NCBI RefSeq assembly: GCF_937129525.1
Contig: NZ_CAKZNK010000075.1
Coordinates: forward strand, 1-46,244
Direction: 5' to 3'
Length of the DNA: 46,244 nucleotides
Source of the DNA: an uncultured Chloroflexus sp.
GTDB lineage: Bacteria; Chloroflexota; Chloroflexia; Chloroflexales; Chloroflexaceae
This document shows, piece after piece, positions 218 to 21,212 of this stretch (position 1 is its first letter; each line of letters opens with the position of its first letter). The notes beneath the pieces were generated by a model. It was not told the origin of the DNA. It was given only the letters and a program-made list of their open reading frames with translations, and ran no database searches. The translations under genes were made by a program, and so were the position numbers.

Positions 218-3200
218 TTAATCGACCGCCTCCCTTGCCACCTTCTCATTCAATTCCATCAGCCGGAATATCAACTCTCGCCGCGCCTCCGCTGCCGGCA
301 TGAAGCGCGTTTGCCCGCGTTCGTTCTGGTGGAAGTCGTGACCCAGGTCCACATCCTGCCAGCCGTAGCAGGCCAGGATGGCATTGTCCAGCGCGACGTG
401 CAGCTCGCGCAGGCGGGCGATGTCGGCATCCTGACAGGCCGGATTGTGGAAGAGGTTGTAGATTTTGGTCAGGCCCAGTTGCCGCGCCAGCATGGTCTGC
501 CGCCGGTGTTCGTGGTAGTCGGCGTCGATTTGCGCGGCGCGGGCAAAGACCGGCTGTGTCAGCAGTTCCGCCAGACCGGGCGCGGCGTATTCTGCCGGCG
601 GGAAGGGGAAGGTGTCGAAGCAGTCGGTGGGGGTGTAGCGGATGTCGGTGCGCAGGCTGGAGGCCTGTTTGCGCAACCAGGTTTCATGCACGGCAGATTG
701 GAGCAGGGCGAAGTGGTAGTCGTCATCGAAGGCGAAGACGATGGTTTGCTCATTATACACCCAGCCTTGTGATACGAAAACGGGCATGTGCATTTCACTC
801 ACCCGACTCCGCGCCAGCACCCGTCGCAGAGGGGCGATGGCGCGATAAAGTTGAGATGCTGCTGAACCATACTGCCACCAAAACTTTTTGCGCTTTGCCT
901 GAATAGGAATGTTATCGCGTAACTTCTCGCGTTCTGGTTTGACGCGCTCTTCCACAATTTTGATCAGCTCAGGATATTTGCGCGCCCGTTCTAAATCCCA
1001 ATCAAAGAAATTAACCACCCAACGGCTAGGTTGCTGTTCAGGATGACTGTTCAGGTCTTCGCCGTTCAGATAGGGGAAGAGGCAATCAGCATTGCGAGCG
1101 TCCCGTGTTAGCAATTGTTGGGCCTCCTCAGGTTGCAGAACAAAACCCATCCCAAGCACAATACTGCCCTGAAACGCCTTCCCCGCATTCTGCTGCAGGC
1201 GTTGCGGTTCGCGTTCGGGCTGATCGTCGAGGCGGGAGGAGATGAAGGGGACGGGGGTGTTGTCGAGCAGGGGCAAACGCGCGGGCGCTTGAGCGCGCGC
1301 CGGCGCGCGGGTGAGCGCGACGAGATTGACTTCGACGCTGGCCTGGCCGGGCCATTTGACGAAGCGCCGGGCAAAGTCGATGACGCCACCCTGCTTGAGG
1401 ATGACCGCCAGGCCGCTTTCGCGGGTGTCGCCCTGGCCGAGGGTGTTGGTCGCGATCATGCCCAGCCGTCCACCGGGTTTGAGCAGACTGAAGGCGCGGC
1501 GAAAGAAGGCGGCGCAGAGATCGGCTGTGCCGCCGAAGGGTTGCAGCGCGTATTCCAGCCATTTCCGGTACGCCTCGCCAAAGGCGCCGCTGACGCGCAA
1601 CCCGCCCATAAACGGCGGATTGCCCAGGATCACATCAAAGCCGGCGGTATATACCGCAAAGGCACAAAGGTCTCGAAGATCAGAAGAATCAGAACCCTTT
1701 GTGGCCTTTGTGTCCTGGTGGTGAAACACCTCAGGAAACTCCAGCTCCCAGTGGAAGAAGGCGCGGTCGGCGCGGATGGCCAGCACGGCGGCGGCCTGTC
1801 GGGCATCGGTCAGACTGCCGCGCGATAGCGCCTCGTGAATGGCGGCGGTGGTGGGAACGAGGCCGGCAGCGGCAAACGATGGCAGGAAGAAGGCGGCGGT
1901 ATAGACATCGCAGGCCAGTTGCAGGCGTTGGAAGTCGGGGCTGTTTTGCGCCTGCTCATAGGCGGCGCGCTTGGCCCGCACCTGCTCGATGGTCGCTTCG
2001 GGCAGCGCGGCCAGCCGGCCCATGGTGGCGGCAAAATCGGCCAGCGGCTGCGAGATGAAACCGTGTCGAAAGAGCGCGGCATCGCGCTCGCGGGCATTGC
2101 GCTTGCGCGCCTCGGCCAGGCGCTTGCGGTCGGCATTGCCCTGCGCTTTGTAGGCTTCATCGGGAATGCCGTCTTCGAGCGCGGTCAGATCGCGCAGCCC
2201 AACCAGCGAATCGCCGTGCCGGATGCGATGTTCCAGAAACGTGAGCGGCTTGCCGGTCGCGTGGCTCTCCAGCCAGAGCGCCACCCGACACAGTTCCACC
2301 GCCAGCGGGTTCTTGTCTACGCCGTAGAGACAATGAGTGATCGCATCGCGCACACCCTGACGCAGCGCCTCAGGGGCCGGCTCGTCTTCGCCGGTGCGCA
2401 GGCGGGCCAGCTCTTTCCCCAGCCGCCGCGCCGCCGCGAGCAGGAAATGCCCGGAACCACAGGCCGGATCGAGCACCTTCAGGTTCAGGATGGCTGCCTC
2501 TCGTTCCTCATTCGTCCGGCAGGCGGCCAGCCGTTCCTGCAAGACCGGTTCGAGCGCGTGCTGAATGAGCGGAGTCACCAGATCGGGCGGGGTGTAGTGC
2601 GAACCGGTCGAGCGGCGTTCTTGACCGCTCGTTTCCATCTGAAACCACGGCAGCGCATCGTTCCAATCGATGACCGGATGCAAATCGAGCAGACTCTCGT
2701 AGACCGAGCCGAGTTCTTCGGTGTCAAGCGCAGCGTAGTTAACCAGGCGCGGCAGATCACTGTCGCGCTCTTGATAGCGGGTCAAATGCCACATAGCGGC
2801 GAGCAGGTCGCGGTTGCCGATCACGCACTCATCCAGCGGTTGCCAGGCAAACAACTCACCGTTGAGCGGCGCGACGGCGAGCAGCTCCGCCAGCCGCTCA
2901 TCGGCAAACACCATCCAGAGCGCGCGCAGGCTGTGCCAGAGGTCTTCGTGGTCGTCTGCCCACCGTCGCCATCGCCCGTACACACTCTCTGCGCCGGCGG
3001 GATCGAAGGGTGTATCTGATGCCAGCCGGCGCAGACGCGATACGCTATAGTGCTCCTGGTAGACGGGATTCGCGCCGATCAGACCGCGTTCCTCAGAAAC
3101 GAGCAGGAAGAGCAGGCGATAGACCAGCCGCAACAACTGCCGGTAGAACACAACGGCAGCGTCGGCAGTCTGCCGCAGCGAGTTGCGCAGGTCGGTATTG

Positions 3201-4045
3201 GCCGGGTGACGGAGAAAACCATTCGCGAGGATCTTCATCGCCTGTTCCACGCTATCGCGCAGGCGGTCACGCGCGCGGCCTCCCTGCTCGAGCGCATACT
3301 GGTAGTAGCGTTCGAGCAAACATTCGTGGGCATCGGCGCTGCTCTGCGGCAGGCGCGAGCGATGGAGCAAGCGGTAGAGCGCGGCAAACTCGGGGAAACG
3401 CTGTTCGGCAATAATAACCGCGAGGTCGAACTCAAGGTACGACTGGCGACGAATATAGGTCGAATTGCGCAGCACGCGCAAGACGCGACCGTTGGTCACA
3501 ATCCCCCACAGATGATCGCTACGGTTCAGAAACTCTTGCATCAGCGCGTGCGGCGACAGGCGCGATCTGCCGCCGGCGGGTCGCCCCCGCTCGCCACTCC
3601 CGGTAGCGCGACCGTCACCCGTCGCCGGGAGCGATGGCGCAGTGCGCCCCAGCTCGTGGTAGAAGCCGACAATGTGAACGGGGGGCGCATCGTCGCCGGC
3701 ACCGGCCCGATGCGAAATGGGGAAGAGCATACCACCCAGCTCGACGGCGCCGGGCTGGCGCGTCAGCTCATAGCCGAGCAGACTGAGAAACGGAATAACC
3801 CAGCCATCGCGGGTAAGTGAGGTTGCGGGATCGGTCGCCGGCAACCGGGTCAATCGGCGACGAAACACTTCCCACATCGCGGAGGCATCCGTCAACACCG
3901 CAGCGATCTCGTCGGTGAGGGAACGGCCCGCCTCGAGGCCGAAATCGGCGACGCGCTGACCGGGCAATTCTTCCGCCAGAAGCTGATCGACCAGGTCGGG
4001 GCTAAACAGGCCGCCTTCGATTCGGATCGGCAAGGAAACGGTCAT
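218..4045 (-). CDS. Eco57I-type (type IIG-like) N6-adenine DNA methylase / restriction protein
   Basis: A 1275-residue protein of the large Eco57I/PglX-like class. It would methylate adenine in a DNA recognition site and, in type IIG enzymes, also cut. The SAM-binding motif I (LDPACGSGHF) lies near residue 550, preceded by GSHYTPPDLV. The catalytic motif IV (GNPPF) lies near residue 820. The C-terminal third matches the target-recognition part of such enzymes. I see no clear PD-(D/E)XK nuclease motif at the N terminus, so restriction activity is unproven. DISARM-type and BREX-type methylases share this architecture, and a partner helicase could lie beyond the left window edge. The ATG at 4045 has no good Shine-Dalgarno. 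A palindromic element encodes an in-frame insert between LEFPEVF and the GNPPF motif (see separate entry). Confidence 0.85.
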   Translation of the reverse strand: MTVSLPIRIEGGLFSPDLVDQLLAEELPGQRVADFGLEAGRSLTDEIAAVLTDASAMWEVFRRRLTRLPATDPATSLTRDGWVIPFLSLLGYELTRQPGAVELGGMLFPISHRAGAGDDAPPVHIVGFYHELGRTAPSLPATGDGRATGSGERGRPAGGRSRLSPHALMQEFLNRSDHLWGIVTNGRVLRVLRNSTYIRRQSYLEFDLAVIIAEQRFPEFAALYRLLHRSRLPQSSADAHECLLERYYQYALEQGGRARDRLRDSVEQAMKILANGFLRHPANTDLRNSLRQTADAAVVFYRQLLRLVYRLLFLLVSEERGLIGANPVYQEHYSVSRLRRLASDTPFDPAGAESVYGRWRRWADDHEDLWHSLRALWMVFADERLAELLAVAPLNGELFAWQPLDECVIGNRDLLAAMWHLTRYQERDSDLPRLVNYAALDTEELGSVYESLLDLHPVIDWNDALPWFQMETSGQERRSTGSHYTPPDLVTPLIQHALEPVLQERLAACRTNEEREAAILNLKVLDPACGSGHFLLAAARRLGKELARLRTGEDEPAPEALRQGVRDAITHCLYGVDKNPLAVELCRVALWLESHATGKPLTFLEHRIRHGDSLVGLRDLTALEDGIPDEAYKAQGNADRKRLAEARKRNARERDAALFRHGFISQPLADFAATMGRLAALPEATIEQVRAKRAAYEQAQNSPDFQRLQLACDVYTAAFFLPSFAAAGLVPTTAAIHEALSRGSLTDARQAAAVLAIRADRAFFHWELEFPEVFHHQDTKATKGSDSSDLRDLCAFAVYTAGFDVILGNPPFMGGLRVSGAFGEAYRKWLEYALQPFGGTADLCAAFFRRAFSLLKPGGRLGMIATNTLGQGDTRESGLAVILKQGGVIDFARRFVKWPGQASVEVNLVALTRAPARAQAPARLPLLDNTPVPFISSRLDDQPEREPQRLQQNAGKAFQGSIVLGMGFVLQPEEAQQLLTRDARNADCLFPYLNGEDLNSHPEQQPSRWVVNFFDWDLERARKYPELIKIVEERVKPEREKLRDNIPIQAKRKKFWWQYGSAASQLYRAIAPLRRVLARSRVSEMHMPVFVSQGWVYNEQTIVFAFDDDYHFALLQSAVHETWLRKQASSLRTDIRYTPTDCFDTFPFPPAEYAAPGLAELLTQPVFARAAQIDADYHEHRRQTMLARQLGLTKIYNLFHNPACQDADIARLRELHVALDNAILACYGWQDVDLGHDFHQNERGQTRFMPAAEARRELIFRLMELNEKVAREAVD
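1645..1723. repeat. Palindromic dispersed-type element inserted in frame in the methylase gene
   Basis: Imperfect inverted repeats rich in CACAAAGG/CCTTTGTG (arms about 1653-1670 and 1696-1715) flank a short core that contains two GATTCTTCTGAT-like stretches. Read on the minus strand it stays open and adds about 25 residues (HHQDTKATKG...LCAFAVYT) between the LEFPEVF segment and the GFDVILGNPPF motif. In relatives, as far as I know the family, these two segments are joined by a short variable loop. The base composition and palindromic form look like a small non-autonomous repeat, not coding sequence. Confidence 0.6.
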
Positions 4046-7945: not shown

Positions 7946-8863
7946 TCAGCCAAAATAGCCGCCCACGAGAAAACCCGAGACAATCTGGATCAACGCAACG
8001 AACGGATTGGAGGCCAGCAGGTAGCGCACATAGTTTTGCTGGGTAGGCTCTTGATAGAGCTTGATCTGATTGTAGATCGGCGCTACCAGAGCCAGCAGCA
8101 TAAACGCCGCCACCCAGTACTGTCCCCAGATCAACGCCAGTATCATCAGCATTGCCTCGAAGCCATTAATCGTCAGATAGGCGACGATCAGGGTACGTTT
8201 CACCCCGATCGCAACCGTGAGCGATTGCAAGCCCAGTTTGCGATCGCCCTCAACGCTCTTGATGTCATTGAGAAAGAGCAGACCGGCAGCCAGGCCGCCA
8301 TTGATCAGCGCCACCAGCACACTCTCCCAGGTCAACGGCGCGAAGATGAGATGGCCGGCCATCCAGCTCATACTGACATAACCGAGACCGACTGCCGGCG
8401 GCCCTAACCAGAACCGCTTCTTGAGCTTGATCGGCGGCATGCTGTAGATCACCGACAGCACGATCCCGACGAAGGCGAAGAAGACAATGAGCGGGTTGGC
8501 GAAGACGAGCGAGACCAGCATCGTCGCCGTACCGAGGACGATCCAGTTCCAGCGCGCCTCGTTCAGGGTCACGATACCAGCCGGAATCGGGCGTTGCGGA
8601 TCGTTAATCGCGTCGAGATCGCGGTCGAAATAGTCATTAATACTCTGGCTGAAGCCGGTGCCGAGCGGCCCGGTCATCAGAGCGCCGAGCAGCATGAGCC
8701 ACCAGTGATCGGGCCGCGCCCAATTGAAGCCTTGCTCGTAACCGGAGGCCAGCGCTCCACAGAAGCAGACCAGCACCGGTGAAATCCAGGTCACCGGGTC
8801 GGCAAGCTCAATGTGGGCCCGAATTTTTCGGCTGAGCGAGACGCGCTGTTCAGTCGAAATCAT
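7946..8863 (-). CDS. Bacteriochlorophyll c synthase BchK
   Basis: A 305-residue polytopic membrane prenyltransferase of the UbiA/chlorophyll synthase family. It esterifies bacteriochlorophyllide c with a long-chain alcohol diphosphate, the last step of BChl c synthesis. The first Asp-rich motif NDYFDRDLDAIND is at residues 76-88 and the second (LNDIKSVEGDR) near residue 210; about eight apolar segments follow the usual pattern. BchG (BChl a synthase) is the alternative, but the direct pairing with bchU and with csmM/csmN favours BchK. The gene ends 20 bases before csmM. The ATG at 8863 has only a weak ribosome site. Confidence 0.85.
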   Translation of the reverse strand: MISTEQRVSLSRKIRAHIELADPVTWISPVLVCFCGALASGYEQGFNWARPDHWWLMLLGALMTGPLGTGFSQSINDYFDRDLDAINDPQRPIPAGIVTLNEARWNWIVLGTATMLVSLVFANPLIVFFAFVGIVLSVIYSMPPIKLKKRFWLGPPAVGLGYVSMSWMAGHLIFAPLTWESVLVALINGGLAAGLLFLNDIKSVEGDRKLGLQSLTVAIGVKRTLIVAYLTINGFEAMLMILALIWGQYWVAAFMLLALVAPIYNQIKLYQEPTQQNYVRYLLASNPFVALIQIVSGFLVGGYFG

Positions 8864-8924: not shown

Positions 8925-9989
8925 TTACGGTTTCACAGCCTGATACAGAACGTGATCGTACCCTTCGTCGAAGGTGATGTCGGTAAAACCGATCTGACGC
9001 AACAAATCAGGGTAGATGGCGTGATCCTTGAACTCAAGCACCGAGAAGCTCATTCCAATCGCGCAGAGATAGTGAGTCAGGTAATCATAATTGGGATGCT
9101 GCGGATCGCTGATCACCATATCAAGGATGAGCACCTTCCCGCCGCTGGGCAGCGCATCGTAAGCCTTCTTGAGCAACATCGCGCAGAACTGCGCATTCAT
9201 CGGATAGAGAATGCGCGAGAAGAGCACCGCATCACCGGGCGGATACGGCTCGCGATACATATCGACTGCCACGGGCGTAATACGGTCGCTCAAGCCTTTT
9301 GCTGCCACATTTTCGCGCACCAGATCGAGTGCGCTGGGCAGATTGATCAACGTCACCTTGAGATTGGGGAAAGCCTGACAGAGCGCAGCGGCAATATCGC
9401 CAATCCCGCCACCGACATCGACCAGCGTTTGCACATCGGCCAGGCGAGCGCGCTTGACCAGCAACTCGACGAAGAGCTGAATGTTCGAGCGGTGCAACGT
9501 CTCATAGAAGAGACTATCTTCGCGCGTGCGCGGCGGATGCGGCACGATGCTGGTGAAATCAACCTTCCCCCGCACCACATCGGCCAGGCGCAGATAGTAA
9601 TTTTCGATCAGATCGGAAATGTAATCAACGAACGGCACCATCGTCATATTGCGATGGCGTTCGGGATCGGCAAAGAACTGATCGGCGAAAGGGGTCAACT
9701 GCCAGCGATCATCTTGCCGGGTCACCAGCCCCACCTGTTCGAGAGTAATCAAGAACTTCTCAAGCCGTGGCGGAACCGTCTCGGTCAAGGCAGCCAGATC
9801 GGCCAGCGCGCGCGGTTCGGCAGCCAGCAGGTCGAACAGCCCCAGATCTTTGGCCGCCTTGATCACAAAGAAATCGACCGTGCCTTTGAACACCATGTCG
9901 TAGGCGCGGTTGGTCGCAGCAAACAGCTCTTGTTGTTCGAGCGCTGCCGCGCCTGTTGTCGTCGGATCAACCGAAGGTGCAGTTGTCAT
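8925..9989 (-). CDS. Bacteriochlorophyllide C-20 methyltransferase BchU
   Basis: A 354-residue SAM-dependent methyltransferase of the O-methyltransferase-like fold used by BchU: an N-terminal helical dimerisation and winged-helix part, then the SAM-binding VDVGGGIGD near residue 185 and LPSGGKVLILDMV in the catalytic domain. BchU methylates C-20 of the chlorin ring, the step that separates BChl c from BChl d. The ATG at 9989 follows GAGGGGGA. It is read from the internal promoter at 10532-10559 through the membrane protein gene and into bchK, csmM and csmN. Confidence 0.9.
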   Translation of the reverse strand: MTTAPSVDPTTTGAAALEQQELFAATNRAYDMVFKGTVDFFVIKAAKDLGLFDLLAAEPRALADLAALTETVPPRLEKFLITLEQVGLVTRQDDRWQLTPFADQFFADPERHRNMTMVPFVDYISDLIENYYLRLADVVRGKVDFTSIVPHPPRTREDSLFYETLHRSNIQLFVELLVKRARLADVQTLVDVGGGIGDIAAALCQAFPNLKVTLINLPSALDLVRENVAAKGLSDRITPVAVDMYREPYPPGDAVLFSRILYPMNAQFCAMLLKKAYDALPSGGKVLILDMVISDPQHPNYDYLTHYLCAIGMSFSVLEFKDHAIYPDLLRQIGFTDITFDEGYDHVLYQAVKP

Positions 9990-10531: not shown

Positions 10532-10559
10532 ATTATAGTACAAATCAGCGACATTTCAA
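10532..10559 (-). promoter_or_regulatory. Internal sigma-70-type promoter for membrane protein-bchU-bchK-csmM-csmN
   Basis: On the minus strand TTGAAA (10554-10559) and TATAAT (10532-10537) are separated by 16 bases. The -35 box overlaps the stop codon of the lipase-like gene at 10556. Matches are 5/6 and 6/6 to the sigma-70 consensus. Transcription would begin just before the ATG at 10522. Confidence 0.75.
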
Positions 10560-11269
10560 ACAACAACCGATGCCGAACCTGACAACACTCGTTGCCAGTG
10601 TCTTAACCCTGCTGGGTCGCCGTACCACGGTCGGCCATGCAATGACGAGTGGTGCAACCCGGGCACAACCAGATACTCGGCGCCGGGCAGGGCGGCGCAG
10701 GTCAGCGTGGTAATACCGTCACCCCATGCCTGCGCGCCAGCCGGCCCATCGATCAGCACATAGCTGTTGTACGCCATTCGCTCGATCCAGCGGCCATGCC
10801 GGTTAGCCTGAATACTGCGCCCGATGATCGAGGTATAGCGTATATGTGTATAATACGCACCCGGATAACAACGATTGGTGAAACCGACGGTTTGCCGCGT
10901 CCAGAATTCCTGACTATGATGAGGCGTGCCGAGCATGATCAGGTGATGGACAAACCGATGACCACCGTAGATCTCACCCTTGTACGGCTGATCGCCGAGG
11001 TACATCCGCGCCACCGTGCCACCGACACTATGCGCCACAATGGTGACCGTCTCAGCGCCGGTTTCGCGCAGCGCGCGCGCTACCGTGTCACGCACAATCC
11101 GCAACACAGGGCGGAAATCCCAATCGCGGGTCAAGGCCCAACGCAGCCGACCGATTGGCGTTATAAAGACGCGAAAATCAAACGGCGGTTGTTCCAGAGT
11201 CTGGGCAAGGGCCGCAAAATCGCGTGGGCTGGTCAGATACCCACCGATGATCACAAGCGGGCGAGGCAT
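10556..11269 (-). CDS. Lipase-like alpha/beta hydrolase (second of a tandem pair)
   Basis: A 237-residue alpha/beta hydrolase. The nucleophile elbow is AHSVGG (Ser near residue 87) followed by LGTPHHS, as in PGAP1-like esterases and triacylglycerol lipases; WGDGI and GLHHSSLH near the end carry the likely acid and His. It is about 40 percent alike by eye to the hydrolase encoded just upstream (same GGYLTSP/GGWLSSP start, same order of motifs). It starts at 11269 with AGGAG. No signal peptide, so cytoplasmic. Within this cluster it may act on chlorosome envelope glycolipids or wax esters (inference). Confidence 0.75.
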   Translation of the reverse strand: MPRPLVIIGGYLTSPRDFAALAQTLEQPPFDFRVFITPIGRLRWALTRDWDFRPVLRIVRDTVARALRETGAETVTIVAHSVGGTVARMYLGDQPYKGEIYGGHRFVHHLIMLGTPHHSQEFWTRQTVGFTNRCYPGAYYTHIRYTSIIGRSIQANRHGRWIERMAYNSYVLIDGPAGAQAWGDGITTLTCAALPGAEYLVVPGLHHSSLHGRPWYGDPAGLRHWQRVLSGSASVVV

Positions 11270-11280
11270 AGCGCTCCTGA

Positions 11281-11964
11281 CTACGCATCAAACCAGAGCG
11301 GCACCACATCGCGGGCGCCGTACCACGTTGCGGGAGCGTTATACGGCGCGTGGCGCGCGCCTTCCAGGATCAGGTTATCGGCGCCGGCCAGATAGCAGGC
11401 CGCTGTGGGCACAATTCCGTCACCGATCAGATTCCCGTTGCCAAACGAGACTTCGTAAGAGCGATAGGCAACCATCTCTTCCGGCGAGCCAAACCGGCGT
11501 CCACGCACGCTACGTCCGGCCACAGCGCGATACTTCACGTGGGGAAACGCTGCGCCGGGATAGCGCGCCTCCAGCCAGTCGGCAAACTGTTTCACCCAGA
11601 TTTCAGAGGTAGCATGCGCTGTGCCCAATGTCGTCAGGCTGGCAACGACTTCGTGGCCGGCGTAGCGCACCCCCTGATACGGTTCATCAGCCAGATACGC
11701 GCGCGCAATCCGTCCTCCTGCGCTGTGGCCGATCAGATCGACCTTATCGGCGCCGGTTTCGGCCAGGGCAATTTTGACCGTTGCCGCCAGCGCATCGAGC
11801 GCCGGCCCAAAATCGGGATCGCGTAGCCTGGCCCAGGCTAACCGGCCAAAATCGACCACATAGACGATCCGATTGTATGGCGGCGACGCCAGAATGCGCG
11901 CCATCCCGAAATAGTCGGCGGGTGATGACAACCACCCGCCCATAATGACCACTGGACGAGCCAT
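11281..11964 (-). CDS. Lipase-like alpha/beta hydrolase (first of a tandem pair)
   Basis: A 227-residue cytoplasmic alpha/beta hydrolase with the canonical GHSAGG elbow (Ser near residue 85), LGTAHATSE, an acid in GDGIVP and the terminal His in GARHAPY. It begins three bases after the stop codon of the Pro-rich protein gene and has no Shine-Dalgarno of its own, so translation is probably coupled. The next gene is its paralogue. A role on lipids or esters of the chlorosome envelope is suggested only by context. Confidence 0.75.
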   Translation of the reverse strand: MARPVVIMGGWLSSPADYFGMARILASPPYNRIVYVVDFGRLAWARLRDPDFGPALDALAATVKIALAETGADKVDLIGHSAGGRIARAYLADEPYQGVRYAGHEVVASLTTLGTAHATSEIWVKQFADWLEARYPGAAFPHVKYRAVAGRSVRGRRFGSPEEMVAYRSYEVSFGNGNLIGDGIVPTAACYLAGADNLILEGARHAPYNAPATWYGARDVVPLWFDA

Positions 11965-11967
11965 AGG

Positions 11968-12741
11968 TTACTCATTGCGTTCAGGTTCAGTGGATGCTGG
12001 CGAAGAGTCTGCCGGTGTCCCGGTTGCTCCTTCTGGAGCCACCTCTGGCGCAGCGACAGCCGCTGCCGGCTGTGGCGATACCGATGCGCTACGCTCGGCC
12101 TGCGGTCCATTGCCATTGTCAGCAACGACCTTGATTCGGCGAATTGTCGGCGACGACGGCTTCGGATTTTCACCGGGCAAGGCTTCAACGACGGCCTTAC
12201 CCAGATCGCCAGCGATCCGCAACAGCTCCTCGGTCTGGAAGCGGAGCCAGTGACCGTAGAAGTTGAACACCTTTTCAGTCGTCGTCCGCACCTCGCGGGT
12301 AAAGGCTTCGAGACCCTGCGGCGGCAAAGCGCCACGCGCATACGAGTGCAGCAGATAGCCGATGGGCTGAACATCAGCGGGCAATTCATCGCCGGACAGG
12401 CTCGAGCGGGCCGGCGATGAAGGCGCGGTTTCGCTGGCTGGCTGATAGCTCGAGGGGTTAAAGCTCCGCGACGTGGGCGTAAAGGTGGCCGGGCCAGGCG
12501 TATACGAACGCGGTGGCGGCGTATACGTCGGGCGCGACGGCGCTGCCGCCGGCGGCGCTCCTGGTTCTGCGGGGTACGGAGTCGGCTCATCGAGATTCAA
12601 CAACTGCTTCAACCAACCAGGCATCCATTGATACTGTGAACCGGCACGCGCGCGCGGATTCTCGTTAGTCAGACCAAACCAGCGGCGAACAAATCCGGGT
12701 AACCAGTTAACAGTCGGATTTTCTTCCTCGAAGCGATTCAT
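11968..12741 (-). CDS. Pro-rich protein with duplicated Trp-containing motif, unknown function
   Basis: A 257-residue protein. The N terminus holds two copies of an amphipathic motif (WLPGFVRRWFGLTNENP at about 13-29 and WMPGWLKQLLNLDEPTP at about 39-55). A Pro/Ser/Thr-rich linker follows (about 56-110), then a helical region (YLLHSYARGALPPQGLEAFTREVRTTTEKVFNFYG). The tail is Ala/Pro-rich and disordered, with SPTIRRIKV near residue 198. The amphipathic motifs could bind a membrane surface. ATG at 12741 after GAGAGGAG. No family recognised; the arginine motif in the tail recalls the two PH-like proteins of the same cluster. Confidence 0.65.
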   Translation of the reverse strand: MNRFEEENPTVNWLPGFVRRWFGLTNENPRARAGSQYQWMPGWLKQLLNLDEPTPYPAEPGAPPAAAPSRPTYTPPPRSYTPGPATFTPTSRSFNPSSYQPASETAPSSPARSSLSGDELPADVQPIGYLLHSYARGALPPQGLEAFTREVRTTTEKVFNFYGHWLRFQTEELLRIAGDLGKAVVEALPGENPKPSSPTIRRIKVVADNGNGPQAERSASVSPQPAAAVAAPEVAPEGATGTPADSSPASTEPERNE

Positions 12742-13651: not shown

Positions 13652-14659
13652 CTAGCGAACGCCCTTCAAGAAGAGGCGCATAATCTGAATGACGTGCTCG
13701 GGCAACTCAAACAAGATCAGATGGCCACACTTTGGCACTTCCAGAAACGACCCATTCGGCGTCAACGCCACCAGTTTGCGACCATCTGCCGGGCGCATAA
13801 TCGGGTCGTTGGCGCCAGCCACCAGCAATAGCGGCTGCCGGATGGCTTTAGCCTGTTCGGCGACGGCCTGCAAGATTTCGGGTCGCGACAACTCGGTGGC
13901 AGAAACGCGCACCGCAGCCGGATCGCAATAGCGCAGACCGAGCGTGCCCAGGCGAATATCGCTAATCGAGGGTGTATGTTGCGCCATCACCAGCCGGGCA
14001 TAGATGAACGGCAGCCACCAGAGATTACGCCGTTCGATTGGGCGGAGCACGCGATTGAAGACCGTATCAAGCAGACGCGGCACGAAGGCCGAAGCAAATT
14101 TGTTGTAAGGTAGCAAGCTAAAGTTGAAAAAGATGAGCGAACGCGCGCGTTCAGGATGGCGCGCGGCCACGTGCAACCCGATAAACGCGCCGAGCGAGAA
14201 AGCGGCTAGATGCGCCGGGCCAAGGTCAAGCGCGCGCATAAGCGCCAGCAAATCGGCGCTAAACCCGGCGACGGTGTAATCCTGGCGCGGGTCGCTATCA
14301 GAAAAGCCATGACCTTTCAAATCGTAGCTGATCACGCGATAACCGGCCTGAGCCAGTGGATCGATCACGTGATGCCACCAGAACGACGAACAATCCCAGC
14401 CGTGGATGAGCAGCAACGGCTCGCCATCGAGCGGGCCTACATCTTGATAGTGATGGACGACGCCATTCAGCTCCACAAAGCGCGCGCGCGCGAGCAATGC
14501 CCGTTCACCCTCAAGCCGCCGTCGTTCGCGCGCGCTGAGCTTACCGGCGAGACGTGTGGCCACCTCATTGGCGTATTCCAGATACTTGGCCGTCGGCGGC
14601 GCGTCAATCGGGCGCGCCGGTGGGCGCTCGATCGCGATCGTCTGGGCAAGCACTGACAT
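13652..14659 (-). CDS. Alpha/beta hydrolase
   Basis: A 335-residue hydrolase. After a 55-residue N-terminal extension come LLLIHGWDCSS (oxyanion HG), the DLKGHGFSD segment, the nucleophile elbow AFSLGAF (Ser flanked by Phe and Leu), NDPIMRP with the acid, and KCGHLILFE with the catalytic His. The ATG at 14659 (AAGGAAA upstream) is preferred over 14686, which would overlap the upstream gene. Substrates are unknown. It resembles the magnesium-chelatase-accessory (BchO-like) and haloalkane/epoxide-type hydrolases in general layout, so a pigment-related or lipid-ester role is possible. Confidence 0.75.
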   Translation of the reverse strand: MSVLAQTIAIERPPARPIDAPPTAKYLEYANEVATRLAGKLSARERRRLEGERALLARARFVELNGVVHHYQDVGPLDGEPLLLIHGWDCSSFWWHHVIDPLAQAGYRVISYDLKGHGFSDSDPRQDYTVAGFSADLLALMRALDLGPAHLAAFSLGAFIGLHVAARHPERARSLIFFNFSLLPYNKFASAFVPRLLDTVFNRVLRPIERRNLWWLPFIYARLVMAQHTPSISDIRLGTLGLRYCDPAAVRVSATELSRPEILQAVAEQAKAIRQPLLLVAGANDPIMRPADGRKLVALTPNGSFLEVPKCGHLILFELPEHVIQIMRLFLKGVR

Positions 14660-14673
14660 AGGCGTTTCCTTCA

Positions 14674-15777
14674 CTACTCTACCCACAACCGCAGCAATTC
14701 ACCCTCTACCCGCGCCCTGAGGCGACCACCGTCAACGAGGCCGGGCAACAACACATGGCGGCGCAACTGACCGAGCTGAACGACCACCTCTTCGCTAGCC
14801 ACGGCAATATCAAGCGCCTTCGGATCGATAAAGGGTATCAGCAGTCGCAGATCGCGCTCGGTGCTGGTTGGGCGCGGCGGTTCAGCGACGAAAATATCGC
14901 CATCGCGATAAAGCGCCGCGCCGCGCAAAGCCCATGTATCGCGATCAGTCGGCGTCAGATCGAGCTGCCCGATGCGCAGCAATGGCCGCGCGCGACTGGT
15001 TTCATGGCTAAAGTCGTGACGGCTCTCGGCATCAACCTGTTCAGGCAAACCGTTGACGATCACCTCATCGCTGGCCAGGCCAAACAGCCCAAAAGCGGTG
15101 AGCGCGGTACGCAAAGGCGGCAGACGCAACTCAGGCGGCAACACAACCATACGCACCCGCGCCCCGCTGTCGGTCTCAAGCCGGGCGCGCTGTTGTTCAA
15201 GCTCAATCCGCAATTCCTGAAGCGGAGCGGTAGCGCTAGGAGCAACAATCGCCGCCGGGATCATTGCCTGTTCCTGCGAAGCGCGCGACTTGCCAGGACC
15301 GCGATCAAGGCCAAAAATCAACCGCACTGCCCAGCGCAACACATCAGGCAGAGTCAGAGCGCGGATCAACGAATCGGGAGAGGGGCCATCCAGAATAAGC
15401 AGGTCAAACCGTCCCGACTGGCGAGCGCGTTCGGCCACCAGCATTGCCGCCACCGCATCAATGCCAGGAAAAGCGGGCAACTCATCGGCGCCAAGATCGC
15501 GCAGGCGGGCAACCAGCCCGCTCCGCAGAGATGGTCGCACCTGCTCCCAACGGCGCGCCACCTCTTCGTGAGGATGGATCTCCATTGCGGCGAGGTTCGG
15601 CTCAAGTTCAAGCGGGCGCGAACCGAGCGTCTGATGGAGCAAATGACCGATCAGATGGCCGGGGCCACTCGAAGCCAGCAGAGTGCGATAGCCGCGACGA
15701 GCGGCGTGACAGGCTGTTGCGAGCGCAGTCGCACTCTGTTGCAATTGATGATGGGCAGAGAAGATTAGTGTGCGCAT
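14674..15777 (-). CDS. ArsA/Get3-like pseudo-ATPase (P-loop lost)
   Basis: A 367-residue protein that aligns from its first residue (MRTLIF) with the ArsA-type ATPase at 20013-21212, but the key motifs are gone. The Walker A GKGGVGKT is AHHQLQQS (8-15), the DPAHS switch is GPGHL, and the D-x-APTG-x-T segment is DGPSPDSL. The C-terminal crystallin/HSP20-like domain (RLLIPFIDPKALDIAVASEE) is kept. It should not bind or split ATP and may act as a structural partner of the two intact paralogues. The start at 15777 has a poor ribosome site. It lies 72 bases after the active paralogue, so the three share one transcript. Confidence 0.8.
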   Translation of the reverse strand: MRTLIFSAHHQLQQSATALATACHAARRGYRTLLASSGPGHLIGHLLHQTLGSRPLELEPNLAAMEIHPHEEVARRWEQVRPSLRSGLVARLRDLGADELPAFPGIDAVAAMLVAERARQSGRFDLLILDGPSPDSLIRALTLPDVLRWAVRLIFGLDRGPGKSRASQEQAMIPAAIVAPSATAPLQELRIELEQQRARLETDSGARVRMVVLPPELRLPPLRTALTAFGLFGLASDEVIVNGLPEQVDAESRHDFSHETSRARPLLRIGQLDLTPTDRDTWALRGAALYRDGDIFVAEPPRPTSTERDLRLLIPFIDPKALDIAVASEEVVVQLGQLRRHVLLPGLVDGGRLRARVEGELLRLWVE

Positions 15778-15849
15778 GCAGCATGCTCGCAGCCGGCGCG
15801 TAATGCCACCGGAATAGACAACGGAACGGCGACAACATACACTGATCGG

Positions 15850-17073
15850 TCAGGCCGCCTCGACCTGCTGTTTGCCATTCGCGCGCGCGGCGCTTGCCTC
15901 ATAGAAAGCGAGGCGCAAGATACCATCTTCGTAGCGATGCTCACCGAGCGCGCAATCGTACAACACCCGCGGCAAAGCGATAGTGCGTTCGAGTCGACCA
16001 ATCGTAATTGTCAGATCTGGCCCGCTATGGTTAATCTCAATCGCCTCATCAAGTTCGAGGAAGGGCAAGCGCAAGCAGAGGTCATACTGACCAGGCTCAC
16101 CATCTTCACTCCACTGTTCCAGCCAGATTGGTCGCTCATCGTACAAGAGCGCACCCGGATCAACATCGCCAAACGTTAATCGACCGACGTGCGCAAGCGC
16201 CTCGACGCCAATCGGTTCACCACCCTGGAGCACAGTGCGGAAGATCGGCGTTGGCGCAAAACTGGCCTCAATCTCAGCCAGGTACTGCTGTTGCAGATTC
16301 ACCCAGTAATCGAAATAGGGGCCCAGGTCGGTGCGGCGGGGCAAGATCTTATTGACCAGCACCGCATCGAGCTGCAAACCATACAGACTGAGGAACGTAT
16401 AGGCGCGGCGCGTCTCGAGCAGCGGCAGGCGTTCCGGATTCAAGACCAGCCGCACCGACACTGCCGAGCTAACCAGGAAATTGGCCAGTTGATCCATCCG
16501 TTCGAGCAGCTTACCGACCTCTTCAAAAAAGCGATCATCGGGCAAATCGCGCCGGAACGGACGGGCCACATTGGCAATCCCGCGGTAGACGCGGAAGAGA
16601 CGCTTACCGGCTTCACCGCCAATGATCATCTCAGGGTAGGCCAGCAGGCGCAGCGTATTGCCGGTCGGCGCGGTATCGAGCACAATCGCGTCCCACCGTC
16701 CGCTTTGCGCTTCATCCATAACCCGTTGCAGAGCCAGGATTTCATCAAGGCCGGGCTGATTTGCCAGTTCCGCGGCGGTCGAGCGCTCGATACCGCGGGC
16801 GGAATAGGTTGCCGTAACGAACTGCTGAAACCCACCCAGGTTCTGCCGCCACTCATAAATCGTATCTACTTCCAGCCCATAGAGATGAGGCGCGAGTGGC
16901 GTTGGCCGGTCGCGGCTGATCGAGATCCCCATCACATCAGCCAGCGAGTGAGCAGGATCGCTCGACAACACCAGCGTGCGGCGACCAGACTGGGCCAGCA
17001 TCACTGCGGTTGCGGCTGAGAGCGTCGTCTTGCCGGTGCCACCTTTACCGGAATAGATAATGACTCGCGTCAT
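15850..17073 (-). CDS. ArsA/Get3-type ATPase with C-terminal crystallin-like domain
   Basis: A 407-residue soluble ATPase. Intact motifs: GKGGTGKTT (residues 8-16), SSDPAHSLAD, and LDTAPTGNTLRLL for switch II. The last 90 residues (LRLPFLELDEAIEINHSGPD...) form an HSP20/alpha-crystallin-like beta domain, the layout of Get3d-type homologues known in plants and cyanobacteria. The Cys set that binds arsenite in ArsA is absent, so arsenic export is unlikely; handling of membrane or hydrophobic client proteins is the more likely job. The start at 17073 has GAGGGAG. It sits between the PH-like proteins and the pseudo-ATPase. Confidence 0.85.
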   Translation of the reverse strand: MTRVIIYSGKGGTGKTTLSAATAVMLAQSGRRTLVLSSDPAHSLADVMGISISRDRPTPLAPHLYGLEVDTIYEWRQNLGGFQQFVTATYSARGIERSTAAELANQPGLDEILALQRVMDEAQSGRWDAIVLDTAPTGNTLRLLAYPEMIIGGEAGKRLFRVYRGIANVARPFRRDLPDDRFFEEVGKLLERMDQLANFLVSSAVSVRLVLNPERLPLLETRRAYTFLSLYGLQLDAVLVNKILPRRTDLGPYFDYWVNLQQQYLAEIEASFAPTPIFRTVLQGGEPIGVEALAHVGRLTFGDVDPGALLYDERPIWLEQWSEDGEPGQYDLCLRLPFLELDEAIEINHSGPDLTITIGRLERTIALPRVLYDCALGEHRYEDGILRLAFYEASAARANGKQQVEAA

Positions 17074-17123
17074 ACTCCCTCGTTCGCCTGCTGAAACCCG
17101 ATACCCCCGCCAGAATCTGCCTG

Positions 17124-18464
17124 CTACGCTGTCGATTCATCCTCATTATGGCCATTGAGTGGCTCACGCGCCACCGAACCAGCGCCACTGCCACTCACCG
17201 GCGCCGGACGATCGGCACGATTAACGACTACCCGGCGAACCGGCATTGACGAACCATTCTCTTCAGCAGGCGGCTCTACCCGGCGCACGCTGATGGCGCG
17301 ACGCACCGGTTGCGGCCCAGGCGACGCAGTCGGCGGCGTAGCGGTAGCCTCGGCTGATGGCGTTTCGGCTGGCGGCGGTGGCGGCGTTGCCTGACGGACG
17401 GTAGCGCGCACCGCGATTCGGCGTTGCACCGGCTCGGTGCCCGACTGTTGCTCAGGCGGTTCGGCAAAGCGGACAGCCGCGCGCACAACCGGGCCGACGG
17501 GTGCCAGCGGCCCGCCTTCGGCCTCTTGCTGCGCGGCGGCATAGTAGAGACCGCGCATCGCGTTACGCCGCACCCGCGGATCCTGCATATTGTTAAGCAG
17601 CTCGGTTGCGCCACTCAAAATCTCGCTGGCGCGGCGCATCCCACGGGCCAAACCGCGCGGCACTTCCAGCATCAGGCGCAACGAACGGCTCACTTCGTAC
17701 ATATTGGGCTGCTCGGGCAACGTTGGGATGGGCCCGACCGGAGTAGCCGAGGCCGAACCAGCCGGCGCCCCGCCCCGCTGTCGCTCATAAGCAGCAATCA
17801 GGTTACCAGGCGACGCAGGTATTGGCTCTTCGTCTTCGGTCGCGCCAAACTTCCACCATGGCTTCTTCGCCGGCTTCTTTGGCTCAGGCTCTGGCGGCGG
17901 CGGCGCCGGTTCACTAACGAAGAAGGGTGGCAACGGTTTCCGCTCAACCGGCGGAAACTCTGTTTCGAAAGCCTTCACCAGTTCTTCGCCGGCGAGACCG
18001 GCCAGCACCTGATCGCCGACCCAGGCCACCATTTTAGCCAGGACATCAACATCTTCAGCGGGCATATAATCGAGCGTATTGACGATCACCCGCTCAGGTT
18101 GACCGGGATCCTGCACTTCACCGAGGGCAACACGGCGCTTGCGCGGCGGTGTGGCCGGCAGGCGCAACGCCAGGCTCACGCGCCCGTGCCAGGGATCCCA
18201 GGTTTCGGCGCGCACCACATCGACATCGCTCCAGGGGAAACCATCGACGGTATCATTGAAAAAGCCGCGCGCCCACAGGATCAGCCGGCGGTCGGTCAAC
18301 GCGACAAAATCGGCGAGAGCCAGACCACCGACGCGACGGCCATTCTCATCAAGCAGCGTACCATCGAACAGGGCAAGCAGCGTCTCACCTTCATCCAGCA
18401 ACTCACGCTGGCGCAGTTCTTCAACGCTGGCCATGCTCACATTGACACCGAGAAATGGACTCAT
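17124..18464 (-). CDS. PH-like domain protein with arginine-motif disordered tail (paralogue 1)
   Basis: A 446-residue protein. Residues about 15-150 form a beta-rich module (LLALFDGTLLDENGRRVGGL, then LTDRRLILWARG) that looks like a bacterial PH-like domain. A Pro-rich linker with KKPAKKPWWKFG follows (about 180-215), then helices (about 255-310), and a Pro/Ala-rich tail with three arginine motifs: PVQRRIAV (345), PVRRAISV (386), PVRRVVVN (408). The module is clearly homologous to the next gene's product. Start at 18464 after AAGGAG. Cytoplasmic, perhaps membrane-surface bound. No named family; context suggests chlorosome assembly. Confidence 0.65.
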   Translation of the reverse strand: MSPFLGVNVSMASVEELRQRELLDEGETLLALFDGTLLDENGRRVGGLALADFVALTDRRLILWARGFFNDTVDGFPWSDVDVVRAETWDPWHGRVSLALRLPATPPRKRRVALGEVQDPGQPERVIVNTLDYMPAEDVDVLAKMVAWVGDQVLAGLAGEELVKAFETEFPPVERKPLPPFFVSEPAPPPPEPEPKKPAKKPWWKFGATEDEEPIPASPGNLIAAYERQRGGAPAGSASATPVGPIPTLPEQPNMYEVSRSLRLMLEVPRGLARGMRRASEILSGATELLNNMQDPRVRRNAMRGLYYAAAQQEAEGGPLAPVGPVVRAAVRFAEPPEQQSGTEPVQRRIAVRATVRQATPPPPPAETPSAEATATPPTASPGPQPVRRAISVRRVEPPAEENGSSMPVRRVVVNRADRPAPVSGSGAGSVAREPLNGHNEDESTA

Positions 18465-18510
18465 ACCTGCTCCTTAGGGCGGTTGCGGCCGCCAATCCAA
18501 ACCACAACAA

Positions 18511-19629
18511 TCATGCTTGTTCGTGATCGGCATCACCCGAGCCACTCAACGCGGCCAGTGGCGCCCGACGCGCGGGCGCGCTGCGCCGACGGAGCGGAAT
18601 CTCGCGCCGATCAGGCATTTCAACTGATGACACACGCGCTGCCGGCATTGGCGCCGGCGAGGGTGATGGCGCCTCCGGTGGGGGCGCGGTACGACGACGC
18701 AATGGAATCTCGTGATAACGCGATCCAGCCGATGGTGGTGGCGGCGCTTCGGCAGCCGATGGCTCAGAAACCGGCGGTTTGGCGCCCGCAGCTCCTGCCG
18801 GATCAGCCTGGCGAGCCGCTTGCCGATTCAAAAACGCCATTGCTATCTGTTGAGCAGCCGGATTGCTAGAAACCGTCTGCACCAGCTCATTGACGGCTCG
18901 AATCGCTTCGGTCAACTCACGAATACTGGCCGGACTCAAATCAAATGGCAAATCGGCCTCGCGCAGAGCGCGGCGTAGGGTATCCCAGGCCGAGCGAGCG
19001 AGGCGACCGGCAGTAAAAATCTGATTGGGCGGCAACGTTGTCGGATCAACGACAAACGGCGCATTGGGCGTTGCCGGCGCACGTGGCGCGCCACCGGGCC
19101 AGCGATAAGGCGTCTCATCAGGCCGCAGCGCATCTTCCGAGCCATAAATTGCCGCTCCGAGCGCAGTCATCACATCAGGCGCGGCCTGGCGCGCATCCAT
19201 TCCGGCAGCGAGCGCCGCGCGCGCTGTTTCGGCAGCGGTGCGCAAAAGAATCATCAACGCCGGCACATACGCTTGCGGCACCAGCGTCAACGTAAAGATC
19301 TGATCATCCGCATCAGGCGCGCTAAAGCCCATGGTCACCATACCGTGGATCGGATCGACGCCGCGGCCATCGATCAGCGCCAACTCGGCCAGTGGAAAGG
19401 CATAGCACAGGTGGCGTCCGTAATCACGCGCCCACAGAATGACCCGCAAATCGGTAATCAGACAATAATCGTGCAGGGTCGGGCCACTCAAGCGCCGCCC
19501 CTGTTGATCAAGCAACACGCCATCAATCGCGACCAGCACCTGCTCATCGTGATCGAGCACATCAAGCCGCGTAATCTCTTCGAGGTGAGCTGGAACGATA
19601 GTATGACTGTGATAGAGCAGGTTAATCAT
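18511..19629 (-). CDS. PH-like domain protein with arginine-motif disordered tail (paralogue 2)
   Basis: A 372-residue protein directly downstream of csmA. The N-terminal module (EQVLVAIDGVLLDQQGRRLSG, then ITDLRVILWARDYG, then DPIHGMVTMGFSAP) aligns with the 446-residue paralogue. A helical middle region (SPASIRELTEAIRAVNELVQ) precedes a Pro-rich tail with two near-identical repeats, EIPLRRRTAP (307) and EIPLRRRSAP (343), 36 residues apart. Start at 19629 after GGAGAG, with a stem-loop between it and csmA. Function unknown. Repeated basic motifs in a disordered tail suggest docking on an acidic surface or on a partner protein. Confidence 0.65.
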   Translation of the reverse strand: MINLLYHSHTIVPAHLEEITRLDVLDHDEQVLVAIDGVLLDQQGRRLSGPTLHDYCLITDLRVILWARDYGRHLCYAFPLAELALIDGRGVDPIHGMVTMGFSAPDADDQIFTLTLVPQAYVPALMILLRTAAETARAALAAGMDARQAAPDVMTALGAAIYGSEDALRPDETPYRWPGGAPRAPATPNAPFVVDPTTLPPNQIFTAGRLARSAWDTLRRALREADLPFDLSPASIRELTEAIRAVNELVQTVSSNPAAQQIAMAFLNRQAARQADPAGAAGAKPPVSEPSAAEAPPPPSAGSRYHEIPLRRRTAPPPEAPSPSPAPMPAARVSSVEMPDRREIPLRRRSAPARRAPLAALSGSGDADHEQA

Positions 19630-19646
19630 AACGCTCTCCGGGGATC

Positions 19647-19678
19647 GGCGTGAGGCGGCGAGCAGCGCGCCTCACGCC
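19647..19678 (-). terminator. Stem-loop directly after csmA
   Basis: An 11-base-pair perfect stem (GGCGTGAGGCG at 19647-19657 with 19668-19678) with a ten-base loop lies 12 bases beyond the csmA stop. There is no T-run, so it is more likely a 3' stabiliser or partial terminator that lets csmA mRNA accumulate above downstream genes than a full stop. Confidence 0.6.
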
Positions 19679-19689
19679 TGCCCGCCAAC

Positions 19690-19929
19690 CTAGCGGTTGA
19701 AGCGCGAGCGGATGCGCTTCGGACGGAAGCCGTTGCTCGAGCTGCTGAATGCGCCCTCGCCCGAGCCGCTCCGGGACACGCCCGGGTAAGCATTGCGGTT
19801 GATGTTGTCAACCGCTGCCGCGGTGGCCTGCAGCGCATTCGAGACCCACTGCCAGTGGCCCTGGAACATGATGTCGCCGATTTGCGCCACTTGCGCCGAC
19901 GACTCCGAGAACCAGCCTCTCGTCGCCAT
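19690..19929 (-). CDS. Chlorosome baseplate protein CsmA (BChl a-binding), precursor
   Basis: A 79-residue precursor. Without the initiator Met the mature protein is 51 residues (ATRGWFSESS... to ...NAYPGVS), with one His (in FQGHWQW) as the likely BChl a ligand. The 27-residue C-terminal extension (RSGSGEGAFSSSSNG... to ...RSRFNR) is removed on maturation, as known for Chloroflexus. CsmA forms the paracrystalline baseplate through which chlorosome energy passes to the membrane. The start is the ATG at 19929, seven bases after AGGAGG; the GTG at 19935 is too close to that site. Two stem-loops bracket the gene. Confidence 0.97.
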   Translation of the reverse strand: MATRGWFSESSAQVAQIGDIMFQGHWQWVSNALQATAAAVDNINRNAYPGVSRSGSGEGAFSSSSNGFRPKRIRSRFNR

Positions 19930-19973
19930 GCACACACCTCCTTAAGTATACGGACTCCCCATATTCAGGTCAC

Positions 19974-19989
19974 CGGAGGCAAGCCTCCG
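19974..19989 (-). promoter_or_regulatory. Small hairpin in the csmA leader
   Basis: CGGAGGC (19974-19980) and GCCTCCG (19983-19989) form a seven-base stem between the ATPase stop codon and the csmA ribosome site. It could protect the 5' end of a processed csmA mRNA. No promoter-like pair is obvious in this 83-base gap. Confidence 0.5.
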
Positions 19990-20012
19990 AGAAACCCCAT
20001 CATCAGGCTGCC

Positions 20013-21212
20013 TTAGCGCGACACCATCTGTGGCGCCATGAAGGGCACGATCAACCAGTCACCCTCCATCTCGGCCTGACCGGCCTCAAGACCGGCCAGA
20101 CTGGTCGGCAGCGTAATCACTCGCCGGAAATCGCCGATCTGCACCACCAGTTCATCACCGTTCTGATACAGATCGAGTTGCGAAACATCGGCGAAGGGCA
20201 ACCGAATCTTCACGCGATAGTGCTTATCGCCAACTTTGGAAATATCGAGCGGCGCGCGATCGTAAAGCACCGCCGTCGGATCCATATCGCCGTAGATATC
20301 GTCACCCATCTGGCGCAACTTGGCAAGACCAACCACCTCTTCGGGGTAGTAGGGAACACGCCGGATCGGCAGCGGCACAAAGGCATGTTCAACATCTTGC
20401 AGATAGCGCTGCTGAACATCGCGCCAGTGGTTAAGATACCCGCTATCCTGATCGATTGGCAGGATCTTGTTGACTACCACCATATCGACGGTCATGCCGT
20501 ACATCGACAGGTACGTCAACGCGCGCTGACTCTCTTTAATAACCATCTTTTCGGGGTTCATAACCAGCCGAATCGAGGTTTCACGCGGATTAGCCAGCGT
20601 CGCCGTGACGCCTTCGAGCTGGCGGAACATATCGTCTACAGCTTCGTAAACCTCAGGTGGCGCGACCATCTTGCCCAGGGTCGAATTAATCTTGCTCATA
20701 GGGCGCAGAATCGGCTTGATAACAAACCGTTCGGCCCCACGCAGCATATTAATCGCCCACTTGAATGTCTCAGGAGCAGACAGCAGTCGCAGCGTCTCGC
20801 CGGTCGGCGCGCAGTCAATGACCAGTAGATCGTAATCGCCACGCTCCTTGTGCTTTTTGATCCGAATAAGGGGAAACGCCTCTTCCATGCCGGGCAAGAC
20901 GCTCATCTCATCAGCCAAAACGCCCTGCACGCCCTGCTCGGCCATGAGCTGGGCAAAGTGTTCGCGCACGATGCCCCAGTTGGTCTCGATGTCGTGGTAA
21001 ATGCTCACTTCGAGCGCGTCAAGATTGTCGGTAATCCGAACAGGTTCGGGGCCAAGCGGCCCTTCAAGATCGAGTGAATCGGCCAACGAGTGGGCCGGAT
21101 CGGTACTCATTACCAGTGTCTTGAGACCACGATCTGCGGCCCGGAGGGCTGTTGCTGCGGCGACGCTCGTTTTGCCGACGCCGCCTTTTCCGGTGAAGAT
21201 CAGAGTGCGCAT
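20013..21212 (-). CDS. ArsA/Get3-type ATPase with C-terminal crystallin-like domain, first gene of the cluster
   Basis: A 399-residue ATPase: GKGGVGKT at residues 8-15, STDPAHSLAD at 36-45, VIDCAPTGETL with switch II Asp at 133, and a C-terminal HSP20-like beta domain (VKIRLPFADVSQLDLYQNGDELVVQIGDFRR, split here only in thought into two strands) from about 315. It matches the Get3d-type layout, not arsenite pumps: the metal-binding Cys triplet is missing. As the gene directly ahead of csmA it is a good candidate to escort CsmA or envelope proteins to the membrane. Start at 21212, with GGAAAGG upstream and a 138-base leader from the promoter. Confidence 0.85.
   Translation of the reverse strand: MRTLIFTGKGGVGKTSVAAATALRAADRGLKTLVMSTDPAHSLADSLDLEGPLGPEPVRITDNLDALEVSIYHDIETNWGIVREHFAQLMAEQGVQGVLADEMSVLPGMEEAFPLIRIKKHKERGDYDLLVIDCAPTGETLRLLSAPETFKWAINMLRGAERFVIKPILRPMSKINSTLGKMVAPPEVYEAVDDMFRQLEGVTATLANPRETSIRLVMNPEKMVIKESQRALTYLSMYGMTVDMVVVNKILPIDQDSGYLNHWRDVQQRYLQDVEHAFVPLPIRRVPYYPEEVVGLAKLRQMGDDIYGDMDPTAVLYDRAPLDISKVGDKHYRVKIRLPFADVSQLDLYQNGDELVVQIGDFRRVITLPTSLAGLEAGQAEMEGDWLIVPFMAPQMVSR

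Follow-up and report, generated by a model that had tools for sequence, protein, structure and literature searches.

Why should csmA, the gene of the chlorosome baseplate protein, be surrounded by ATPases of the ArsA/Get3 type, and why should one of these have lost its ATP site? This question is raised by a contig of an uncultured Chloroflexus sp. (NZ_CAKZNK010000075.1), whose whole stretch of 46,244 nucleotides is called the window here. The original prediction had placed three ArsA/Get3-type paralogues around csmA, two active and one dead, and had proposed that they form a hetero-oligomer escorting CsmA or other envelope proteins. The three genes were found where predicted, on the minus strand, and all their Pfam matches (ArsA_ATPase and ArsA_HSP20) lie above the curated cut-offs. 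They are named A (20013-21212, 399 residues; PF02374 1.3e-92, ArsA_HSP20 1.3e-23), B (15850-17073, 407 residues; PF02374 3.1e-67, PF17886 5e-16) and C (14674-15777, 367 residues; PF02374 2.1e-25, PF17886 2.2e-7). A, which was also placed by trees, and B are intact ATPases of the Get3d type, and C is a catalytically dead paralogue with the Get3d/ArsA fold. Between A and B sit csmA (19690-19935, 81 residues; PF02043 1.4e-30) and the genes of two PH-like proteins, PH-like protein 1 (18511-19629, 372 residues) and PH-like protein 2 (17124-18464, 446 residues), all on the minus strand. The order of transcription is A, csmA, PH-like 1, PH-like 2, B, C, an alpha/beta hydrolase gene and other genes including bchU.

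The block flanking csmA is a more important result than the dead copy. A search of named genomes with a DNA pattern for CsmA, one that recognised every csmA locus already identified in this analysis, returned 97 stretches, 80 of which were read. Of these, 56 loci belong to the green sulfur type and 24 to Chloroflexota; many come from near relatives, and the 24 overlap the family genomes used for synteny. The survey covers green sulfur bacteria and Chloroflexota, as the third chlorosome phylum, Chloracidobacterium, was not among the stretches listed for the pattern. Loci with too little flank were omitted, namely 12, 16 and 30 of the 56 and 4, 9 and 15 of the 24 for the upstream ATPase, the PH-like gene and the second ATPase, respectively. 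With enough flank, a same-strand ATPase of the Get3d family is observed upstream of csmA in 44/44 green sulfur and 20/20 Chloroflexota loci, csmA is followed by a PH-like relative in 40/40 and 15/15, and beyond the PH-like gene comes another Get3d-family ATPase in 26/26 and 9/9. None of the block ATPases or PH-like genes of these loci lies on the strand opposite to csmA. The green sulfur loci exhibit, between the first ATPase and csmA, an open reading frame which we take, from its position, to be csmC. Two genomes from another family of the same class (family f5; G085 and G086) exhibit the order ATPase-csmA-PH-PH, with an ATPase 61-62% identical to A. As they carry a type-I reaction-centre match, they probably belong to Ca. 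Chloroheliales (compare PMC10972752). The core, consisting of a Get3d ATPase, csmA, one or two PH-like proteins and, in two of the three lineages, a second Get3d ATPase, thus recurs across two phyla, and the link to csmA in the original prediction is both real and wider than supposed. A 32-row tree unites the ATPases upstream of csmA from the three lineages, A among them, in one subfamily (support 100/100), which includes unlinked green sulfur copies. The downstream ATPase is of the B type in Chloroflexaceae and of the F type in green sulfur bacteria (61-row tree). One of the 56 loci, L134, is a green-sulfur-type csmA on a short contig titled Candidatus Latescibacterota, which is probably misbinned.

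The two PH-like proteins are paralogues, with 28% identity over the N-terminal 190 residues and the same profile; PH-like 2 carries a long low-complexity tail after its N-terminal PH-like domain. An AlphaFold2 model of its residues 1-190 (predicted local distance difference test, pLDDT, 90.7) exhibits strands at 29-135 followed by a helix at 136-154, i.e., a PH-type beta barrel capped by a C-terminal helix. The top structural matches of the model are PH, EVH1 and Ran-binding domains of the PH superfamily (Z up to 11.5). No library family was found above its cut-off for either protein, PH-like 2 reaching 12.8 bits against the cut-off of 23 for Pfam bPH_3. The PH-like families of both phyla are linked by a Chloroflexota protein profile (E about 1e-19 to 5e-22; 20-25% identity).

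What the core might do is suggested by the known properties of its parts. Get3d is an ATPase with a hydrophobic chamber and with the ability to bind tail-anchored proteins (PMC10248533). CsmA sits in the lipid monolayer of the chlorosome, has been called the only protein that the chlorosomes of all three phyla share (PMC9316378) and is needed for viability in a green sulfur bacterium (PMC12214013). The linkage of Get3d and csmA suggests CsmA or its partners as the proteins handled by A and the second ATPase, with the PH-like proteins either recognising the envelope or docking the carrier. The core could be a targeting module, in which the ATPases would capture the amphipathic CsmA or other envelope proteins post-translationally and the PH-like proteins would mark, or dock at, the chlorosome envelope, whose lipid monolayer would be out of reach of the usual machinery for insertion into bilayers. 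We give this function of the core about an even chance, and the escort of CsmA by Get3d proteins, as first proposed, is an attractive possibility. In the open-licence literature searched, no link of Get3 or ArsA with csmA or chlorosomes was found, except for an ArsA signature indel used in taxonomy (PMC6180586); a prior mention in subscription papers on the csm operon is possible. A paper of 2022 sets the budding and aggregation models of chlorosome formation side by side (PMC9316378). The presence of the Get3d and PH-like genes beside csmA in two phyla provides named candidates for the machinery delivering proteins to the chlorosome monolayer, and makes chlorosome assembly a testable question. 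Moreover, CsmA becomes a concrete candidate client of Get3d, a family that extends from bacteria to plants.

With regard to C, the protein can be aligned from residue 1 almost to the end with both intact copies, at 26% identity in each case (E 2e-31 for A, 3e-18 for B); A and B are 33% identical to each other. The motifs are as originally described. At the P-loop position, A exhibits GKGGVGKT (preceded by T), B exhibits GKGGTGKT (preceded by S) and C exhibits AHHQLQQS (residues 8-15; 15733-15756, minus strand). The DPAHS position reads GPGHL in C, and the switch II motif, DCAPTG or DTAPTG in the intact copies, reads DGPSPD. As C has a single cysteine (residue 23), it is without the CXXC zinc motif. 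Both P-loop lysines are gone in 32/32 readable C orthologues, i.e., in 28/28 full-length ones and in 4 from further family genomes, and in 36/36 copies of D, a second dead paralogue described below. They are kept in 27/27 A and 27/27 B (K9 and K14 in B), in 17/17 other Chloroflexales copies and in 44/44 green sulfur and f5 rows (38 distinct). The position of the Walker lysine is occupied by Gln in 27/28 C and by Arg in 1/28, and by Arg in 3/4 of the orthologues added later. Gly takes the place of the switch-I Asp in all 28 C and in 28/36 D, and the switch-II Asp is retained in 26/28 C. The deviant Walker A motif typical of Get3d is thus present in A and B (27/27 each) and absent from C, in which neither lysine occurs (0/28, and 0/4 of the additional orthologues). 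The Get3/ArsA fold of Get3d is found in C (PF02374 above its cut-off, AlphaFold2 model and fold search), and the alpha-crystallin-type C-terminal domain, predicted for all three paralogues, is present in A, B and C (PF17886 above its cut-off; residues 307-362 of C, 14692-14859, minus strand). The NCBIfam family NF050088, Get3_fold_NosAFP, is not reached by any of the three (C 83.9, B 79.7 and A 147 bits, against a cut-off of 325). C is thus assigned to the Get3d branch of the Get3/ArsA family, as a pseudo-ATPase.

The AlphaFold2 model of C, built from 28 sequences, has a pLDDT of 86 and a predicted template modelling score of 0.86, and the predicted fold is shared with the family, as the original prediction required. 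Its best structural match is NosGet3d (Z 26.4, root mean square deviation (rmsd) 4.5, 321 residues, 22% identity). Get3d (NosGet3d, PDB 3IGF/8EGK; AtGet3d, PDB 8ELF) is the best PDB match of C by structure and by sequence (E 1.2e-17), and of D by sequence. Like C, it combines the Get3 fold with a C-terminal crystallin-like domain and is without CXXC. In contrast to Get3d, which keeps the P-loop and is an ATPase (PMC10248533), C and D are without the P-loop entirely. C shares with eukaryotic Get3/TRC40 the nucleotide domain and the helical client domain (Z about 16-19), but is without CXXC and ATP site and has the extra crystallin-like domain. We know of no Get1, Get2 or Get4 here, although these were not sought. 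The two Get3-like proteins BagA and BagB of Mycobacterium tuberculosis form a heterodimer in solution and are found in one solved complex entry (PDB 6BS3); the match of C to its chain A has Z 18.9 (rmsd 3.2, 243 aligned residues). However, C is not among the matches of NF053622/NF053621, and B (61.2/60.8) and A (51.3/74.2) score far below the cut-offs of 400/521. The arsenite-pump ATPase ArsA shares the Pfam family PF02374, but A, B and C have a single nucleotide domain, and no arsenic genes occur among the neighbours scanned.

C is not alone in having lost its ATP site. The relatives searched for C comprised 61 genomes, 37 from the family of the window and 24 others, and four further family genomes were added later. 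A fourth relative in the source genome, D (G000:C144:52605-53726; L006:1447-2571), has lost the same residues as C; it adjoins folD-like and SDR-like (short-chain dehydrogenase/reductase-like) genes and is unlinked to csmA. D is present in 32/37 family genomes and 4/24 others (E 1e-50), in 2/4 of the further family genomes (from D-gene scores) and in two more genomes of family f4 (36-37% identity), which brings the totals to 34/41 family genomes and 6/9 f4 genomes. The f4 copies keep the glycines (TGSPGVGIS) and are without the P-loop lysines. In f4, the reaction-centre L and M genes lie within one open frame, which we take to be a mark of Roseiflexus; f4 is probably Roseiflexaceae. C-type genes number 29, all within the 37 family genomes, plus 4 in the four further ones, and 41/41 family genomes have at least one of C and D, whether csmA is there or not. 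The two dead paralogues group in a single clade (100/100 in the 66-row and 61-row trees), so the loss of the ATP site most simply predates the copy in the csmA operon; this site was lost long ago in C together with its sister D. The clade adjoins A at 100/100 in the 66-row tree, which is rooted on the F group, and its placement relative to A and B is not settled in the 61-row tree, once green sulfur and f5 rows are included. A NosGet3d fragment falls next to C and D (Shimodaira-Hasegawa-like approximate likelihood ratio test 98) on a branch so long (3.29) that its placement is unsure; AtGet3d was not included.

As to whether the dead copy is kept in chlorosome-bearing relatives, csmA occurs in 33/41 family genomes and C in 30 of those 33. 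In G009 and G019, csmA lies on broken contigs, so the absence of C there is not established; the third genome with csmA and without C is G014, whose operon is otherwise intact. Six green sulfur genomes gave 34 Get3d-family matches, with a P-loop in 30/30 loci read (four were not read) and no dead copy, and no ATPase-dead Get3d copy was found among the matches in the two f5 genomes. Among the lineages compared, dead copies are found only in Chloroflexales. A strict tie of D to phototrophy is inexact, as G039, G058 and G040 have reaction-centre genes and are without D.

The fear that C could be a lone decaying copy with elevated nonsynonymous change is dispelled. C is under strong purifying selection: the median ratio of nonsynonymous to synonymous change (dN/dS) is 0.036, with no stops, across eight Chloroflexus genomes (6/28 pairs unsaturated, as only pairs with a proportion of synonymous differences under 0.55 were used), and the loss of the P-loop is common to its orthologues. 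In comparison, A has 0.026 and B has 0.012, bchU and the UbiA-family gene stand at 0.034 and 0.036, respectively, and D reaches 0.092. Selection in C has shifted from the P-loop to other parts of the protein. Residues 8-13, the former P-loop, are among the least conserved stretches (mean 1.99 bits vs 1.13 overall), and the most conserved parts are helix 1 (14-27), GLDRGPG, the crystallin-like domain and the C-terminus. GLDRGPGKS (residues 156-164; 15286-15312, minus strand), in the client-domain part of the fold, is the most conserved stretch (0.34 bits over residues 156-165) and is shared by most D copies. All 29 C and 27/36 D contain the motif D[RK]GxG, against 0/115 intact rows. GLDRGPGKS was considered as a Walker-like motif and rejected, since it misfits [AG]x4GK[ST] and its Lys is Arg or Gln in many orthologues. 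The dead C/D branch indicates that the Get3d fold is useful without ATP.

Within the relatives and the window, the order A-csmA-PH-PH-B-C-hydrolase is observed on one contig in 26 genomes and over two contigs in one more. The explanation that we favour, to which we give an even chance, is that C belongs to the Get3d/PH module as a holdase or regulatory member. C would do an ATP-independent part of the work, either buffering clients as a holdase or regulating A or B by occupying their dimer face without a catalytic lysine, although any such specific role remains rather doubtful. In its widest form, this explanation would have a monolayer-targeting module kept beside csmA in two phyla since before they exchanged or inherited chlorosomes, to which phototrophic Chloroflexales added the ATP-free Get3d subunits C and D, with selection moving to the client-side GLDRGPG motif and the crystallin-like domain; this history we propose tentatively, as somewhat short of an even chance.

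Several observations weigh against this explanation. C exhibits Arg at the Walker lysine in at least 4/32 orthologues, and a lost lysine alone is no proof of inactivity, because NosGet3d is active as an ATPase with Arg at that position (PMC10248533); in C, the glycine loop is also gone. It was not for the sake of chlorosomes that ATPase activity was lost, since D is dead too and occurs in family genomes without csmA and B. In G014 (L070), only C is missing from the operon, the order of A, csmA, the two PH-like genes, B and the hydrolase being unchanged, and G024 has a C-type gene (L068:8093-9196) outside any csmA operon, in a genome without csmA, B and D. The residual rate covariation of C is -0.58 with A, -0.37 with B and -0.12 with csmA (18 genomes, uncontrolled), so that as a pointer to a partner of C it favours neither A nor B. 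The C gene of G023 is frameshifted (L039; 71% complete assembly). The csmA-linked ATPases form one clade in the 61-row tree (97/93), but the 32-row tree does not resolve their direct orthology (U+GX 43/40); for this second tree, the approximately unbiased (AU) test gives p-AU 0.556 for csmA-linked orthology and 0.295 for the rival grouping of A, f5 and unlinked green sulfur copies. Because of this conflict, we do not claim direct orthology and limit the claim to a shared subfamily. Finally, the interactions, localisation and client of the module are all putative. Based on G014, G024, the D copies without csmA, and the green sulfur and f5 genomes without a dead copy, we reject a strict tie of the dead copy to chlorosomes and regard it as tied to phototrophic Chloroflexales. 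In G014, B ends at 8622 and the hydrolase starts at 8732; the frame breaks in the C gene of G023 could be a sequencing error or real decay.

These same observations could be explained if C and D were a general ATP-independent chaperone or a lipid or pigment carrier of phototrophic Chloroflexales, C being in the csmA operon by co-expression with pigment and antenna genes and not acting with A or B. D occurs in the 34/41 family genomes and in 6/8 reaction-centre-bearing f4 genomes whether or not csmA is present, the loss of the ATP site has left the crystallin-like domain and the chamber fold in place, a ligand the size of a phospholipid co-purifies with AtGet3d (PMC10248533), and the rates of C do not covary with those of A and B. 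Nevertheless, C is a separate copy, fixed beside B in every family csmA operon that extends far enough but one, and is more constrained than D (dN/dS 0.036 vs 0.092), and a type II reaction centre without D occurs in two genomes of f4 and one of f2. We consider a general carrier possible but unlikely.

The retained pseudo-ATPase with a shared fold stands from the original prediction, and its hetero-oligomer of two active proteins and a dead one lacks support. C would then be an obligate partner of A and/or B, like the mycobacterial Get3-like pair, for which the solved heterodimer (matched by C as given above) is a precedent. The genes are adjacent, and the conserved helix after the P-loop and the switch glycines would lie on the dimer face, as judged from the family. 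In contrast, the gene set is broken in G014 and G024, the dead D exists without A or B, and the rates of C covary negatively with those of A and B, which together make an obligate partnership improbable. That the genes are arsenite pumps or ordinary remnants, with csmA beside them by accident, is very improbable in spite of Pfam and NCBIfam names that read ArsA, anion-transporting ATPase: no arsenic-resistance pump, regulator or reductase occurs among the 19 scanned proteins of the block and its surroundings, the ArsA equivalog cut-offs TIGR04291/NF041417 (650/800) are reached neither by C (18.8/27.3 bits) nor by A and B, and the ATPase is linked to csmA on one strand in 64/64 loci with enough upstream sequence, so an arsenic operon was rejected.

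Returning to the favoured placement of C in the Get3d/PH module, the gene following C in the operon is that of the alpha/beta hydrolase (13652-14686, minus strand; PF00561 1e-31), which has 13 bases in common with the end of C and is the next gene wherever the contig extends that far. Downstream of it lie bchU (8925-9989) and a UbiA-family gene that is bchK-like by position (7946-8863). As csmA is Caur_0126 and bchU is Caur_0137 in C. aurantiacus (PMC3150298), C is probably Caur_0130 by gene counting. Two adjoining alpha/beta hydrolase genes of similar type (10556-11964; PGAP1/palmitoyl-thioesterase-like) are kept with bchU in most relatives, and a link to lipid or pigment esterification is possible. 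The gene at 11968-12741, which is without a Pfam match, is the fastest-changing of the block (dN/dS 0.136). Further away, at 218-4045, the window encodes an MmeI-like restriction-modification protein with Eco57I/MmeI methylase and target-recognition domains.

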